Origin: Bacillota bacterium
GTDB taxonomy: Bacteria > Bacillota > Clostridia > Acetivibrionales > DUMC01
Assembly: GCA_013314855.1 (NCBI GenBank)
Contig: JABUEW010000013.1
Coordinates: 1-50,686 of the forward strand
Direction of reading: 5' to 3'
DNA: 50,686 nt
The position numbers were made by a program, and so were the translations under genes. How positions within the stretch are numbered: position 1 is the first letter of the stretch; every line of letters begins with the position of its first letter. The notes under the pieces are model-generated. The model saw only the letters and a list, made by a program, of their open reading frames with translations, searched no databases and had not been told where the DNA came from. Below are positions 17,676 through 50,686 of this stretch, piece by piece.

Positions 17676-19274
17676 ATGGAAAAAAAGACATATTATATTA
17701 CTACGCCAATATACTATCCCAGCGACAGGCTTCATATAGGACACTCCTATACAACAGTGGCTGCAGATACTATTGCGAGGTATAAAAGATTGAAAGGTTA
17801 TGATGTAATGTTTCTTACCGGCACTGATGAACATGGACAAAAAATACAAAGAAAGGCCGAGGAAAAAGGAGTTTCACCAAAAGAATATGTTGATAATATA
17901 GTGGCAGGAATTAAAGAGTTATGGAAAGTAATGAAGATAACCAATGACCGTTTTATCCGGACTACGGATAAGTACCATGAAGAAGCTGTACAAAAAATAT
18001 TTAAAAAGCTTTATGACCAGGGAGATATTTATAAAAGCGAGTACGAAGGCTGGTATTGTACTCCCTGCGAATCATTTTGGACTGAAACCCAGTTAGTAGA
18101 CGGGAAATGCCCTGATTGTAGAAGAGAAGTAGAACTTACAAAAGAGGAAAGCTATTTCTTTAGATTATCAAAGTATCAAGACAGGTTAATAAAACATATT
18201 GAGGAAAATCCTGAGTTTATACAGCCTGTTTCAAGGCAGAATGAAATGCTCAACAACTTTTTGCGGCCGGGCCTTGAAGACCTTTGTGTTTCCAGGACTA
18301 CTTTTAATTGGGGTATTCCTGTAACATTTGATGAAAAGCATATAATATATGTATGGATTGATGCCCTTTCAAATTATATAACTGCTCTTGGCTACATGTC
18401 GGAAGACGATTCAGACTACAGGAAATACTGGCCTGCGGATGTGCACTTGGTAGGCAAGGAAATAGTACGTTTTCATACAATAATATGGCCAGCGATGTTA
18501 ATGGCCCTGGGAGAACCCTTGCCCAAGCAGGTTTTCGGCCATGGATGGCTACTTCTTGAGGGAGGCAAAATGTCAAAATCCAAAGGCAATGTAGTGGATC
18601 CTGTAATCTTGGTGAAAAAATACGGAATTGATGCAGTAAGATATTTTCTATTGAGGGAAGTGCCTTTCGGCTCAGATGGAGTGTTTTCCAATGAGGCGTT
18701 AATTAACAGGATAAATTCGGATTTGGCTAATGACCTGGGCAACCTGGTGAGCAGGACTGTAGCCATGATAGATAAATATTTCGCTGGGACTATCTCCACA
18801 GAAAGGACAGTAGGAGAATTTGATGAAGATTTGAAAGCTGTTTTATTTGAAACTCCCGGAAGAGTTGAAGAGCTATTGGATAAATTGCAGTTTAGTTCTG
18901 CCCTTGCTGAAATATGGAAGGCTATATCCAGGACAAACAAATATATTGATGAAACCATGCCCTGGACTCTGGCAAAAGATGATTCAAAAAGAGGAAGATT
19001 GGCGGCAGTTTTATATAACCTGGCGGAAAGCATAAGGATTATTTCGATATTAATTCAGCCTTTTATGCCAGAAACGCCTAAAAAGATATGGAACCAGCTT
19101 GGCCTGGAAGAAAACTCTCCTTTAATTTCATGGGAGAGCGCAGGCAGGTGGGGCATGTATCCTGAAGATGCAAGGGTTAAGAAAGGCGAATTAATATTCC
19201 CTAGAATTGACATTAAAAAGGAATTGGAAGAACTGGAGAATATTGCTTCGGGAAAATTTGAAAATGCGCCCTGA
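17676..19274 (+). CDS. metG: Methionyl-tRNA synthetase
   Basis: Charges tRNA-Met with methionine. Class I signature HIGH is at residues 20-23 and KMSKS at 298-302. A zinc knuckle is formed by C128, C131, C145 and C148. The anticodon-binding helical domain follows. At 532 aa the protein lacks the C-terminal tRNA-binding (EMAP/Trbp111-like) domain found in the roughly 650-aa form of many Firmicutes. The end ([12 protein letters not shown]) shows no truncation scar, so this is probably a natural short form. TAAGAGGAGG precedes the ATG. The order metG-tatD-yabE-rsmA follows B. subtilis. Confidence 0.96.
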
Positions 19275-22192: not shown

Positions 22193-23119
22193 ATGAGGAA
22201 TGAAATGGAAAAGGACATCAGGAGACTTATGGAAAAATATAATATCAGGCCTTCTAAGTCATGGGGCCAGAATTTTCTTGTTAGCAAAGAGGTCAAAGCT
22301 AAAATAACCGAGGCTTCCGCTGTGCAAAAGGATGACCTTGTAATTGAAATCGGCGCCGGCCTTGGAGTTTTATCAAAAGAGCTTGCAGCCAAGGCTGGAA
22401 GGCTGGTAGCTATAGAGATAGATAAACACTTGGTTTCAGCACTTGAGGGAATTTTAAAGGATTATAAAAATGTAGTAATTATCAATAAAGATGTATTAAA
22501 ACTTGATATTAAGAATGATATAATTCGCAAGGTATGTGGGACAGCCCACGAAGCAAATGGAATTACTAAAGGGGACGTGTTTATTCCTGCTTGTATTAAA
22601 GTAGTGGGAAATCTTCCCTACTATATAACTACTCCTATTATAATGAAACTATTGGAAGAAGAACCTGGAATTGATGAAATTATTTTTATGGTTCAGAAGG
22701 AAGTGGCGGACAGGATTCTTGCTAAACCCGGGACAAAGGATTACGGCTCTTTGTCTATAGCAGTACAGTATTATTCACAGCCTGAAATACTATTTGACGT
22801 CCCGCCTTTTTGTTTCCTGCCCAGGCCAAAAGTTTATTCATCAGTTATAAGATTAATCATAAATAAAATACCTCCTGTACACGTTGTTGACAAAGATTTG
22901 TTTTTTAAAATTGTAAGGGCATCCTTTGGTCAAAGAAGGAAAACTTTGCTAAATGCTTTATTTAATGCAAATATATTTTCTCTTAGTAAAGAAGAAATCA
23001 AATCTATACTGAAAAGTCTGGAAATAAATGAAAACATGAGAGGAGAGAACTTATCACTAATTCAATTCGCGCAAATGTCAAATGTAATTTCTCGAAAATT
23101 AAATACTTTAAATATTTAA
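22193..23119 (+). CDS. rsmA: 16S rRNA (adenine(1518/1519)-N6)-dimethyltransferase
   Basis: RsmA (KsgA) dimethylates two adenosines in helix 45 of 16S rRNA, a late step of small-subunit assembly. Motifs are SWGQNFLVSKEV, VIEIGAGLGVLSKELA, AIEIDKHLV, the catalytic NLPYYITTPI and FFKIVRASFGQRRKTLLNAL in the C-terminal domain. At 308 aa it is slightly long because of an insertion (GTAHEANGITKGDVFIPAC, about residues 118-136) just before the NLPYY strand. The ATG at 22193 or the in-frame ATG at 22205 (with GAGGAA before it) may be the start. The stop codon abuts a repeat arm at 23119. Confidence 0.95.
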   Translation: MRNEMEKDIRRLMEKYNIRPSKSWGQNFLVSKEVKAKITEASAVQKDDLVIEIGAGLGVLSKELAAKAGRLVAIEIDKHLVSALEGILKDYKNVVIINKDVLKLDIKNDIIRKVCGTAHEANGITKGDVFIPACIKVVGNLPYYITTPIIMKLLEEEPGIDEIIFMVQKEVADRILAKPGTKDYGSLSIAVQYYSQPEILFDVPPFCFLPRPKVYSSVIRLIINKIPPVHVVDKDLFFKIVRASFGQRRKTLLNALFNANIFSLSKEEIKSILKSLEINENMRGENLSLIQFAQMSNVISRKLNTLNI

Positions 23120-23162
23120 TGTTTCTGTCATTATAATGGGTCATACATAGAAAATGCGCCCC
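23119..23162 (+). repeat. Solitary right arm of the MITE-like repeat
   Basis: These 44 bases (starting AATGTTTCTGTCATTATAAT and ending GAAAATGCGCCC) match the right arm of the 30210-30442 element with few changes. No left arm or core is visible nearby. The arm starts at the rsmA stop codon. It also creates an ATG (23154) that lengthens the next open frame artificially. Confidence 0.8.
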
Positions 23163-29429: not shown

Positions 29430-30188
29430 ATGCTCGAAAAGCTTAAAGAAATTGTATTTAAAGCAAACCTTGAACTTGTAAATAAGGGACTTGTAATCTA
29501 CACATGGGGTAATGCCAGCGGTATATGCAGGGAGAAAGGACTTGTAGTAATAAAACCAAGTGGGGTTGATTATGATAAGCTCAAACCGGAAGACCTTGTT
29601 GTACTTGACCTTGAAGGCAATGTTGTTGAAGGAAAGCTTAAACCTTCATCAGATACAGCAACTCATCTTATTCTATATAAAGCATTTCCGGAAATAGGAG
29701 GAATTGTGCATACCCATTCCCGCTGGGCAACAATATTCGCCCAGGCGGGATTATCAATACCGCCTCTTGGAACTACTCATGCCGACTACTTTTATGGAGA
29801 AATTCCCTGTACCAGAAAGATGACTGTAACAGAAATCAAAGGAGATTACGAAAAAGAAACAGGAAATGTTATTGTTGAGACTTTCAAAAATAAGAATCCT
29901 GTTTACATTCCCGGAGTTCTGGTAAATGAACACGGCCCGTTTTGCTGGGGGAGGGATGCCGATGAAGCCGTATACCATGCCGTGGTAATGGAGGAAGTTG
30001 CAATGATGGCTTTTAATACGCTGGCGCTAAGGAATTTTGCAGCAGGATTGGCTTCCGAACATGTGAAAACAGACTATAAAATATCAACCCATATGTCAGC
30101 CAATGTATCAATAACAATGTCGCCTGCACTCCTTGATAAGCATTTTCTTAGAAAACATGGGAAAAACTCCTACTATGGACAAGGGTAA
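29430..30188 (+). CDS. AraD-like L-ribulose-5-phosphate 4-epimerase / class II aldolase
   Basis: A 252-aa zinc-dependent enzyme of the AraD/FucA family. Motifs include [59 protein letters not shown] with the zinc histidines, [26 protein letters not shown] and the terminal [18 protein letters not shown] typical of AraD. It most likely interconverts L-ribulose 5-phosphate and D-xylulose 5-phosphate. No araA or araB is nearby; its neighbour is a UroD-like protein. About 35 residues ([13 protein letters not shown] region) before the end differ from E. coli, so a related sugar is possible. AAGGAGTT precedes the ATG. Confidence 0.88.
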
Positions 30189-30200
30189 GGAAGAAAAATG

Positions 30201-30451
30201 GGATTTTTTGGGTGCATTTTCTTTCCATGACCCATTATATTCCAGAAACGGTGCTCCAGGCCTCTAGAGCCTGTAAATTCACTTCGGGGCAAATCAAACT
30301 CGCAAAATAATTTGAATAAAGATCTAATGTGATTATTTTGCTCAAACAGTTGATTTGCTTATCCCTCGTCGGATTAACAGGCTCTACGAGACCTTTCGCA
30401 ATGTTTCTGTCATTATATGGGTCATATATGGAAAATGCACCCGGATTTTTT
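30201..30451. mobile_element. MITE-like element, 233 bp, with TIRs and 9-bp direct repeats
   Basis: The element at 30210-30442 begins GGGTGCATTTTC and ends GAAAATGCACCC, perfect 12-bp inverted ends. It is flanked by GGATTTTTT at 30201-30209 and 30443-30451, a 9-bp target-site duplication. The arms are imperfect inverted repeats over 40 bases. Inside is a second nested palindrome: AGAGCCTGT (30266-30274) with ACAGGCTCT (30377-30385), CAAATCA (30290-30296) with TGATTTG (30351-30357), and GCAAAATAAT (30302-30311) with ATTATTTTGC (30332-30341). There is no reading frame. A 53-base segment (30266-30318) recurs identically at 50600-50652. Confidence 0.85.
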
Positions 30452-30458
30452 ATCCTAA

Positions 30459-30488
30459 TTGCAGTTGGGTGTTATTATATGGTATAAT
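30459..30488 (+). promoter_or_regulatory. Putative promoter of yebC
   Basis: TTGCAG (30459-30464) and TATAAT (30483-30488) with 18-base spacing lie just beyond the right end of the MITE-like element and 57 bases before yebC. The insertion therefore stops eight bases short of the -35 box and may affect yebC transcription. Confidence 0.55.
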
Positions 30489-30544: not shown

Positions 30545-31273
30545 ATGTCCGGACATTCTAAATGGGCTAATATTAAACATAGAAAAGAAAAGAGTGATGC
30601 GCAAAAAGGCAAATTATTTACAAAGATTGGAAGAGAATTGGCTGTTGCTGTTAAACAGGGAGGTCCCGATCCTGAAACTAACAGTAAGCTAAAGGATGCC
30701 ATTGCAAAGGCGAAAGCTGCCAATATGCCCAACGATAATATTATAAGGAGCATAAAAAAGGCAGCAGGAGATATGAATTCGGATAATTACGAAGAGATAT
30801 CCTATGAAGGTTATGGTCCAGGCGGAGTTGCTATTATAGTACGGACAATGACCGATAACCGCAACAGGACAGCGGGAGATATAAGGCATTATTTTGATAA
30901 ATTTGGAGGAAACCTCGGTCAAACAGGATGTGTATCCTTTATGTTTGATAAAAAAGGAGTTATATTAATTGAGAGGACAGAAGATATTGATGAAGACACT
31001 CTTATGATGGAGGCCATTAATGCTGGAGCTGAAGACTTCGATGCCCAGGATGAGTACTTTGAGATATTAACTGATCCCGCCGATTTTTCTGCTGTAAGGG
31101 AAACCCTGGAGAAGCAGGGTTATACATTTATATCTGCAGGAGTAGAAATGGTTTCCAAGACCACAACAAAACTCACAGAGCCAAAGCATATTGAACAGAT
31201 GAACAAACTCATAGATAATCTGGAAGACTTGGATGATGTACAGAATGTTTATCATAACTGGGAACAGGATTAA
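30545..31273 (+). CDS. yebC: YebC/PmpR-family protein
   Basis: A 242-aa, three-domain protein found in nearly all bacteria. Signatures are SGHSKWANIKHRKEKSDAQ at the N-terminus, FTKIGRELAVAVKQGG, AKAANMPNDNIIRSIKKA, YEGYGPGGVAIIV, TDNRNRTAGDIRHYFDKFGG and the C-terminal AGAEDFDAQDEY. Members act as DNA-binding regulators or, for some YebC proteins, help ribosomes with difficult peptide sequences (reported for the family). GGAGGT precedes the ATG. A strong hairpin follows the gene. Confidence 0.96.
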   Translation: MSGHSKWANIKHRKEKSDAQKGKLFTKIGRELAVAVKQGGPDPETNSKLKDAIAKAKAANMPNDNIIRSIKKAAGDMNSDNYEEISYEGYGPGGVAIIVRTMTDNRNRTAGDIRHYFDKFGGNLGQTGCVSFMFDKKGVILIERTEDIDEDTLMMEAINAGAEDFDAQDEYFEILTDPADFSAVRETLEKQGYTFISAGVEMVSKTTTKLTEPKHIEQMNKLIDNLEDLDDVQNVYHNWEQD

Positions 31274-50400: not shown

Positions 50401-50686
50401 TTTTATAAAAATTATATCATAGGCTTTACATAAAAAAATAGGAATAAATTAATATATTACATTGTTAATTTAACTCTTTATACCGGCACCATATGTCAGT
50501 AGGAATTTAACCAAAATTTGCAGTTCTACATGGTTTTGCAGGGGCGCATTTTATTTTTATGAAGAAAATGCTTCCGGTAACTAAATGCTCCAAGTCTTAA
50601 GAGCCTGTAAATTCACTTCGGGGCAAATCAAACTCGCAAAATAATTTGAATAGAATTTAATAATATTTCAATGTAATTATTTTGCT
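50401..50686. other. Intergenic region running into a truncated copy of the MITE-like element
   Basis: The first 140 bases are AT-rich and should hold the promoter of the minus-strand pair (a TATAAT on the minus strand near 50412-50417, without a clear -35 partner). From about 50542 the sequence is the repeat described separately. No gene is seen. Confidence 0.5.
50542..50686 (+). mobile_element. Partial second copy of the MITE-like element, cut by the window end
   Basis: It starts with GGGCGCATTTT (50542-50552), matching the terminal repeat of the 30.2-kb copy with one C/T change. The left arm is diverged, but the core from AGAGCCTGT is identical over 53 bases (50600-50652 against 30266-30318). 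The last 17 bases of the window (AATGTAATTATTTTGCT) match the next conserved block with one change. The right half lies outside the window. Confidence 0.85.

Follow-up and report, generated by a model that had tools for sequence, protein, structure and literature searches.

Directly upstream of yebC in the window (the whole stretch of DNA analysed, 50,686 nucleotides) lies a 233-bp element that is very probably a MITE, moved by an ISKra4-type transposase in trans with promoter targeting, later deletions having left 34-bp remnants of the family. This reading draws on the ends of the element, on its copy number, on the duplicated target sequences that flank some of the copies, on a single site found empty in a congener, on a recurrent spacing from promoters and on an autonomous element in Acetivibrio alkalicellulosi. 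A transposase of the ISKra4 family (prokaryotic Mutator-like, DDE) would recognise the GGGYGCAT ends in trans and insert the element with a 9-bp target duplication, preferably ~16 nt upstream of a sigma-A −35 box; either end may face the promoter, probably since the two ends are nearly identical. In the window, the insertion point would have been 16 nt in front of the yebC promoter, leaving that promoter intact, and the long palindrome may then lose the DNA between short repeats, with tips-only remnants of 34 bp as the presumed product.

Structure and copies of the element

All of the parts that the first-pass annotation had described at 30201-30451 are present, namely the 12-bp terminal inverted repeats (12/12, perfect), the exact 9-bp duplication (9/9) and the nested palindrome (Table 1). 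Independent detection recovered the arms as an inverted pair with 73% complementarity (30210-30264/30388-30442) and the nested pair with 93% (30265-30278/30373-30386). The element starts 21 bases past the stop codon of the class II aldolase-domain gene, with yebC downstream of its other end, and no ORF of at least 60 aa was found within its 233 bp, in keeping with its description as non-coding. Folding of the − strand as RNA gave z −10.8 and folding of the + strand as DNA gave z −9.5, with 0/200 shuffles as good in each case. Elsewhere in the window, the identity of a 53-base core at 50600-50652 was correctly reported and belongs to a B-type copy that runs from 50542 to the contig end, and AAAATGCGCCC at 13-23 does match the tip; the solo right arm exists (91% over 44) but its coordinates had been given one base off (23118-23161, not 23119-23162). 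A B-type right tip (AAAATTTGAAAATGCGCCC) also stands alone at 19253-19271, by reading of the letters at the end of an apparent coding frame, which would take its last codons before TGA from the tip (...GKFENAP).

Table 1 Positions of the MITE copies, their parts and the neighbouring genes in the window
Feature	Position	Strand	Basis or remark
Complete A-type MITE copy, 233 bp	30210..30442	+	repeats, inverted-arm detection, alignment
9-bp target duplication GGATTTTTT	left copy 30201..30209, right copy 30443..30451	.	9/9 identical
Left terminal inverted repeat GGGTGCATTTTC	30210..30221	+	
Right terminal inverted repeat GAAAATGCACCC	30431..30442	+	
Left outer arm, A-type	30222..30264	+	consensus A end resembles the end adjoining the ISKra4 fragment in G011, 21/27
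Right outer arm, A-type	30388..30430	+	
Anchor stem, left strand TAGAGCCTGTAAAT	30265..30278	+	
Anchor stem, right strand ATTAACAGGCTCTA	30373..30386	+	
Left core 30-mer	30271..30300	+	39/39 own-genome places identical, up to 3 mismatches permitted
Predicted sigma-A promoter of yebC	30459..30488	+	TTGCAG 30459-30464, 18-bp spacer, TATAAT 30483-30488; −35 start after 16 nt from the element
yebC (TACO1/YebC family), downstream target gene	30545..31273	+	
Class II aldolase/adducin-domain gene, upstream neighbour	29430..30188	+	
B-type copy, truncated by contig end	50542..50686	+	
Solo A-type right arm	23118..23161	+	
B-like end, contig start	1..23	-	reading of letters

A search of the whole genome, as proposed at first pass, revealed a dispersed, multi-copy family with shared ends. 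In the host assembly (4.43 Mb, 252 contigs), the left-core 30-mer occurred 39 times with up to 3 mismatches permitted (17 forward and 22 reverse; control 0), every copy being identical, and right-core anchors numbered 33, including one in the window that matched by chance. The tip GGGTGCATTTTC with at most one mismatch was found 110 times in the genome versus 10 times for a reversed control pattern, an abundance that exceeds chance. The search for whole elements scored 40 of 93 candidates and is thus not a copy count. Within the first 40 listed candidates, 25 lay no more than 50 nt from a contig end and both ends of the window fall inside MITE copies, indicating that the element breaks the assembly, many of whose contig breaks are attributable to this repeat.

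Alignment of 13 copies separated two arm subfamilies that share the inside and have unrelated pairs of outer arms, subfamily A, to which the window copy belongs (...CCATGACCCATTATATTCC), and subfamily B (...TTTTTATGAAGAAAATGCTTCC). Neither this division nor the multi-copy spread is visible from the single window. In two copies (L004 and L005), a B-like centre loop sits between A arms, suggesting that the subfamilies have exchanged parts. Variable sites made up 11/50 of the arm and 0/30 of the core in the 14 copies of subfamily A (Fisher p = 0.005) and 6/50 and 0/30, respectively, in the 16 copies of subfamily B, where the test was weaker (p = 0.079). The constancy of the core together with the A/B chimeras is compatible with both selection on the core and gene conversion.

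Target duplications, an empty site and short remnants

Several other copies have matching ends and a 9-bp duplication of their own, so that the transposon-like features of the window copy recur across the family. Flanking 9-mers agreed at 8 or more positions at the exact junction in 5/13 full copies of the host genome compared with 1/930 control pairs, and in 3/18 of the 34-bp forms; when a junction slip of up to 2 bases was permitted, the proportions were 6/13, 6/18 and 2/930 for full copies, 34-bp forms and controls, respectively. Agreement at the exact junction was below 8/9 in the remaining 8/13 full copies and 15/18 short forms, which suggests that many insertions are old or have altered ends. 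Among relatives with GGGTGCAT-like ends, a duplication of at least 8/9 was found in 14/24 elements versus 1/552 control pairs, with 22 of the 24 elements, and all 14 positive ones, coming from A. alkalicellulosi. One 33-bp form (L109) has a 9/9 duplication and falls outside the pattern of the 34-bp forms.

An empty site, which the first-pass annotation had suggested looking for in related strains, was found in the sole genome of the same genus in our relatives sample (G001, 89% complete). On its contig C182 the aldolase-domain gene is directly adjacent to yebC, with the element absent (one site in one relative), and the promoter-like GTAAAATAA aligns with GTATAATAA of the window; the region is accordingly not conserved at yebC in this congener. 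With some other copies also having duplications and matching ends, neither of the outcomes named at first pass as refuting its reading was obtained. The element had zero matches anywhere in G001 or in the same-family genome G002.

A 34-bp palindrome, in which 12 bases separate the two tips, occurs at 18 places in the host genome with at most 1 mismatch. By reading, the B left end runs into the right tip at the repeat GAAAATGC in 14 of the 18, the left tip runs into the B right end at GCATTTT in 3, and 1 is A-derived. The 18 short forms in the duplication test above comprise 17 of these and one on C11 with 2 mismatches, C147 being left out. Short forms of 21, 37 and 40 bp are present in A. alkalicellulosi. 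The 34-bp forms probably arise by post-insertion deletion between short repeats, an origin that we favour over mobility of these forms by themselves.

Short palindromes of 34 bp located between genes could also indicate a REP/BIME-like repeat or a family of bidirectional terminators rather than a transposon. REP/BIME sequences are palindromes without target duplication and are associated with a RAYT (TnpA-REP) gene. The family in the host genome differs in that duplications flank part of the full copies and part of the 34-bp forms, the terminal inverted repeats are shared with an IS, and copies lie at a fixed distance upstream of −35 boxes (see below). For full-length copies this interpretation is already unlikely given the duplications and the empty site, and for the family as a whole we find it barely credible.

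Promoter spacing and the candidate mobiliser

The element had been placed just upstream of the yebC promoter, and the spacing bears this out, with TTGCAG-N18-TATAAT starting 16 nt beyond its end. We attribute this position to target choice, as an outward-facing sigma-A −35 box started 15-17 nt from the junction in 27/99 junctions of the host genome (~1.4 expected). The best outward promoter had this spacing in 10/51 left flanks (0.80 expected) and 17/48 right flanks (0.62 expected), while the same flanks read inward as a control gave 4/99 (1.56 expected); over a wider range of 12-18 nt, the inward left control was raised (6/51 vs. 2.5 expected). These counts vary with the background composition assumed, and they depend on the position weights of the sigma-A matrix and on mononucleotide shuffle controls. 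A matrix-free count, which is independent of the weights, showed TTG at 15-19 nt in 38 cases in the host genome compared with 10 and 12 in the adjacent bins and 8 when the flanks were read inward. Promoters at 12-18 nt were also present beside the 34-bp forms, in 4/18 left and 7/18 right flanks (~0.7 expected each).

The same spacing was apparent outside the host genome. Among relatives whose ends resemble GGGTGCAT, mainly A. alkalicellulosi, 9/44 flanks had it (0.86 expected; inward 0), and with strict anchors 6/22 left and 3/21 right flanks did, all species being pooled. At ISKra4 elements, the end downstream of the transposase gene had the spacing in 3/4 flanks, and the other end in 0/4. 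Flanks with a promoter at 14-18 nt led to an outward gene in 18/18 cases versus 19/39 of the other flanks (Fisher p = 7 × 10−5), 42 flanks being too short for this judgement, and only 16 of the 31 insertions with both flanks available had such a promoter on one side or both at the cut-off applied. TnGBS and related ISs have been described as inserting 15-17 bases upstream of sigma-A −35 boxes (Guerillot et al., PMC3942029). According to that article, some ISKra4 members obey the −35 rule, those with 83-100% complementary repeats are flanked by promoters on both sides, duplications are 8 or 9 bp long, and a transposase sequence signature is described for promoter targeting.

Mobility conferred by a transposase in trans, as had been proposed for the window copy, is supported by copies with the same ends, by the 9-bp duplications, by the empty site and by an autonomous element with matching ends in a relative. 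This is an ISKra4-family element of 1.64 kb in A. alkalicellulosi (L260, 684-2324; 300.7 bits to NF033572, cut-off 205), with the ends GGGTGCATAAATTATATTTG and GGGTGCATTTAATTTATGTG and the 9-bp duplication AAAAACATC; two internally deleted relatives (L261 and L262) each have their own duplication. The second of these (L262, G042 C2:1297000-1299500), an ISKra4 copy, has a stretch of undefined residues in its frame (N in the record). A full transposase gene with matching ends, which the first-pass annotation had listed as something to look for, is thus present in A. alkalicellulosi, but the host genome yielded fragments only. No intact ISKra4 transposase was found in the host genome, where clear fragments lie on C179 and C200; the readable end of the C179 fragment is GGGTGCGATTTTTATTTGTG, not GGGCGCATTTT, and there are weaker matches, such as that on C210, which has 27% identity, is cut by a contig end and has no GGGYGCAT tip. 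The assembly contains nothing below ~2 kb (last numbered contig 2029 bp), so a collapsed contig of a 1.6-kb IS would be missing from it, which is not evidence for one.

We compared 36 pairs of MITE and ISKra4 ends over 27 nt, with shuffles over positions 9-27. The left and right ends of the A. alkalicellulosi MITE matched the IS end upstream of the transposase gene at 22/27 and 23/27 positions (p = 0.0002 each), and the B-left end of the host genome matched this same A. alkalicellulosi end at 22/27 (0/5000 shuffles). The host A-left and A-right ends each matched the end beside the ISKra4 fragment of G011 at 21/27 (p = 0.001 and 0.0002, respectively), and the best ISKra4-end match of B-right was 18/27 (p = 0.038, with 36 pairs compared). 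The terminal repeats are perfect over 12 bp in the window copy and the similarity to IS ends extends over 27 nt with mismatches; the ISKra4 criterion is 18-39 bp. Most probably, the family has been mobilised by ISKra4-type transposases in both the host genome and A. alkalicellulosi, and it is from the ends, duplications and spacing that we infer mobilisation in trans, and an ISKra4 transposase as the agent, in the host genome.

ISKra4 protein matches and the MITE core only partly coincide. Of 11 core-bearing genomes, the host (G000) and A. alkalicellulosi (G042) have such a match and G009, G016, G022, G025, G031, G037, G045, G052 and G056 do not; G011, G030, G048 and G054 have an ISKra4 match and no MITE match, and comparison of six ISKra4-bearing stretches did not reveal the core. 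ISKra4 in core-bearing relatives is not a strict requirement, as a mobiliser can be lost, and its absence from nine core-bearing genomes implies that the mobiliser has been lost in most of them or that another one operated.

Other transposases were considered as mobilisers. IS256-type (PF00872, 12 matches in 2/3 genomes) and DDE_Tnp_1 transposases (PF01609, 27 matches in 3/3 genomes) had no plausible pairs of GGGYGCAT-like ends at the 39 loci inspected, where the sole pair with plausible spacing (L211) showed no inverted repeat beyond the 11-mers. The GGGTGCATTTTT tip on C26 was rejected as an element end since it lies inside a reading frame resembling another transposase, and at this locus (L203, G000 C26:2200-5300) two overlapping frames resemble parts of that kind of protein. 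L189 and L190, which are long tip pairs of A. alkalicellulosi, enclose ordinary-looking genes and were rejected as transposons.

The same kind of MITE could instead have been moved by an ISLre2 transposase (UPF0236, p-MULT 3), which would also account for 8-9-bp duplications and sigma-A targeting. The host genome encodes one UPF0236 transposase whose frame is intact (C17, 252.8 bits), and ISLre2 shares the promoter target rule (PMC3942029). Against this, the 4.1-kb C17 locus (L118) contains no exact GGGCGCAT or GGGTGCAT, a single mismatched 8-mer (GGGTCCAT) lies ~130 bp beyond one end of the gene with its partner absent on the other side, and the MITE ends in A. alkalicellulosi match the resident ISKra4. 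We therefore regard an ISLre2 mobiliser as quite improbable and retain an ISKra4-type transposase as the favoured agent.

The conserved core, its distribution and related systems

Besides the host, 10 of the 59 genomes in the relatives sample had a match to the element, distributed among four further families of the order, with short matches in G009 and G022. The exact core pattern retrieved 55 stretches from six assemblies in a collection of 84,980 species, which may lack close relatives of the window: A. alkalicellulosi, A. straminisolvens, A. mesophilus and the MAGs SKW182, DTU079 and AS24abBPME_43. The genome of A. alkalicellulosi contains 84 GGGTGCATNTNA tips versus 0 controls, and it carries related elements that share the core and have GGGTGCAT ends as well as 9-bp duplications. 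In SKW182 (G037), the core lies in quite different outer arms (TTGTGCTAGGTTNATTAGG...), and neither recognisable GGGTGCAT ends nor target duplications were found by eye in its eight sequences (L073, L083, L094, L097, L128, L130, L137 and L148). Two elements of A. alkalicellulosi (L191, G042 C2:959900-960500; L192, C3:354400-354950) measure 264 and 265 bp compared with a typical ~199, the extra ~65 bp being inside the core and partly palindromic, as in a nested insertion or a variant subfamily. In G031, a TPP riboswitch (L074 1663-1769, 71.8 bits) adjoins a core copy.

We assessed covariation in 48 of 49 diverse representatives drawn from 81 copies (L036 was left out). All 11 pairs of the outer helix had two-sided changes, 92.7% of cells were paired (shuffles 80.2%, slid versions no more than 56.3%), and the covariation score was 0.353 (shuffles 0.137, slid versions no more than 0.140), with the structure derived from the same alignment and related sequences able to score above shuffles even when unstructured. 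There is almost no variation in the anchor stem (TAGAGCCTGTTAAT/ATTTACAGGCTCT), and the adjoining purine-rich stretches are largely conserved. The palindrome seems to be maintained, whether by the needs of transposition, by palindrome renewal, by gene conversion or by a role in the host.

A functional structured RNA or regulatory hairpin kept by hosts, with mobility secondary, would fit the identity of the core over 30 nt in 39/39 copies, its occurrence in five families of the order and the covariation of the paired arms above that of shuffles. Copies showed no orientation bias towards neighbouring genes, however: of 81, 5 lie at edges and 2 inside called ORFs, and the 74 that could be classified comprise 21 opposed to both neighbours, 18 in line with both, 19 divergent and 16 convergent. 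Rfam gave no match at the gathering threshold for the element in 11 loci and none that was credible for the window copy. The congener lacks the element at this site, and covariation is equally expected for a palindrome kept or renewed as DNA. A host-maintained RNA or hairpin is thus an unlikely primary explanation. Also unlikely, and speculative, is the view that the core is the true unit of selection, a structured nucleic-acid module that would gain the ends of different resident transposons in different clostridial lineages and so be delivered upstream of sigma-A promoters genome-wide, where it could act on the transcription machinery or be read by it, for example as an upstream insulator or a binding platform.

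As a MITE, the element is of a known kind; its promoter targeting, exchangeable arms and conserved core were not found described. The accessible literature, with most subscription papers outside it, held no description of the element, of MITEs with GGGYGCAT-type ends or of an ISKra4-derived or promoter-spaced MITE. It resembles the ISKra4 group (p-MULT 4) in its 8-9-bp duplications, its −35 box at ~16 nt and its two-sided promoters with near-perfect repeats (PMC3942029), and in the matching ends in A. alkalicellulosi; unlike ISKra4, it has no gene, and its core is absent from the ISKra4-bearing stretches compared. The phyla listed for p-MULT 4 in PMC3942029 do not include Firmicutes. With TnGBS/ISLre2 (p-MULT 3) it shares insertion 15-17 bases upstream of −35 boxes, but the resident ISLre2 has no GGGYGCAT ends, and that family generally inserts in one orientation, whereas here either end faces the promoter.

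Among prokaryotic MITEs of type II, Chunjie (178-235 bp) and QMITE1/QMITE2 are similar in size, in their intergenic copies, in having IS similarity confined to the ends and in their size variants, which reach down to 39 bp in QMITE1 (PMC10969869). They differ in that here the inner core is the most constant region, the arms and ends vary across subfamilies and genera, and insertion is promoter-spaced.

The promoter-seeking of Mutator-like transposases thus appears to extend to gene-free elements of a few hundred bases, which can swap the upstream DNA of dozens of genes with their promoters undamaged. The family also poses a testable puzzle, namely why conservation is higher inside the MITE than in its arms. 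With its natural insertions at a constant spacing from −35 boxes, it provides a test bed for how these transposases locate promoters.
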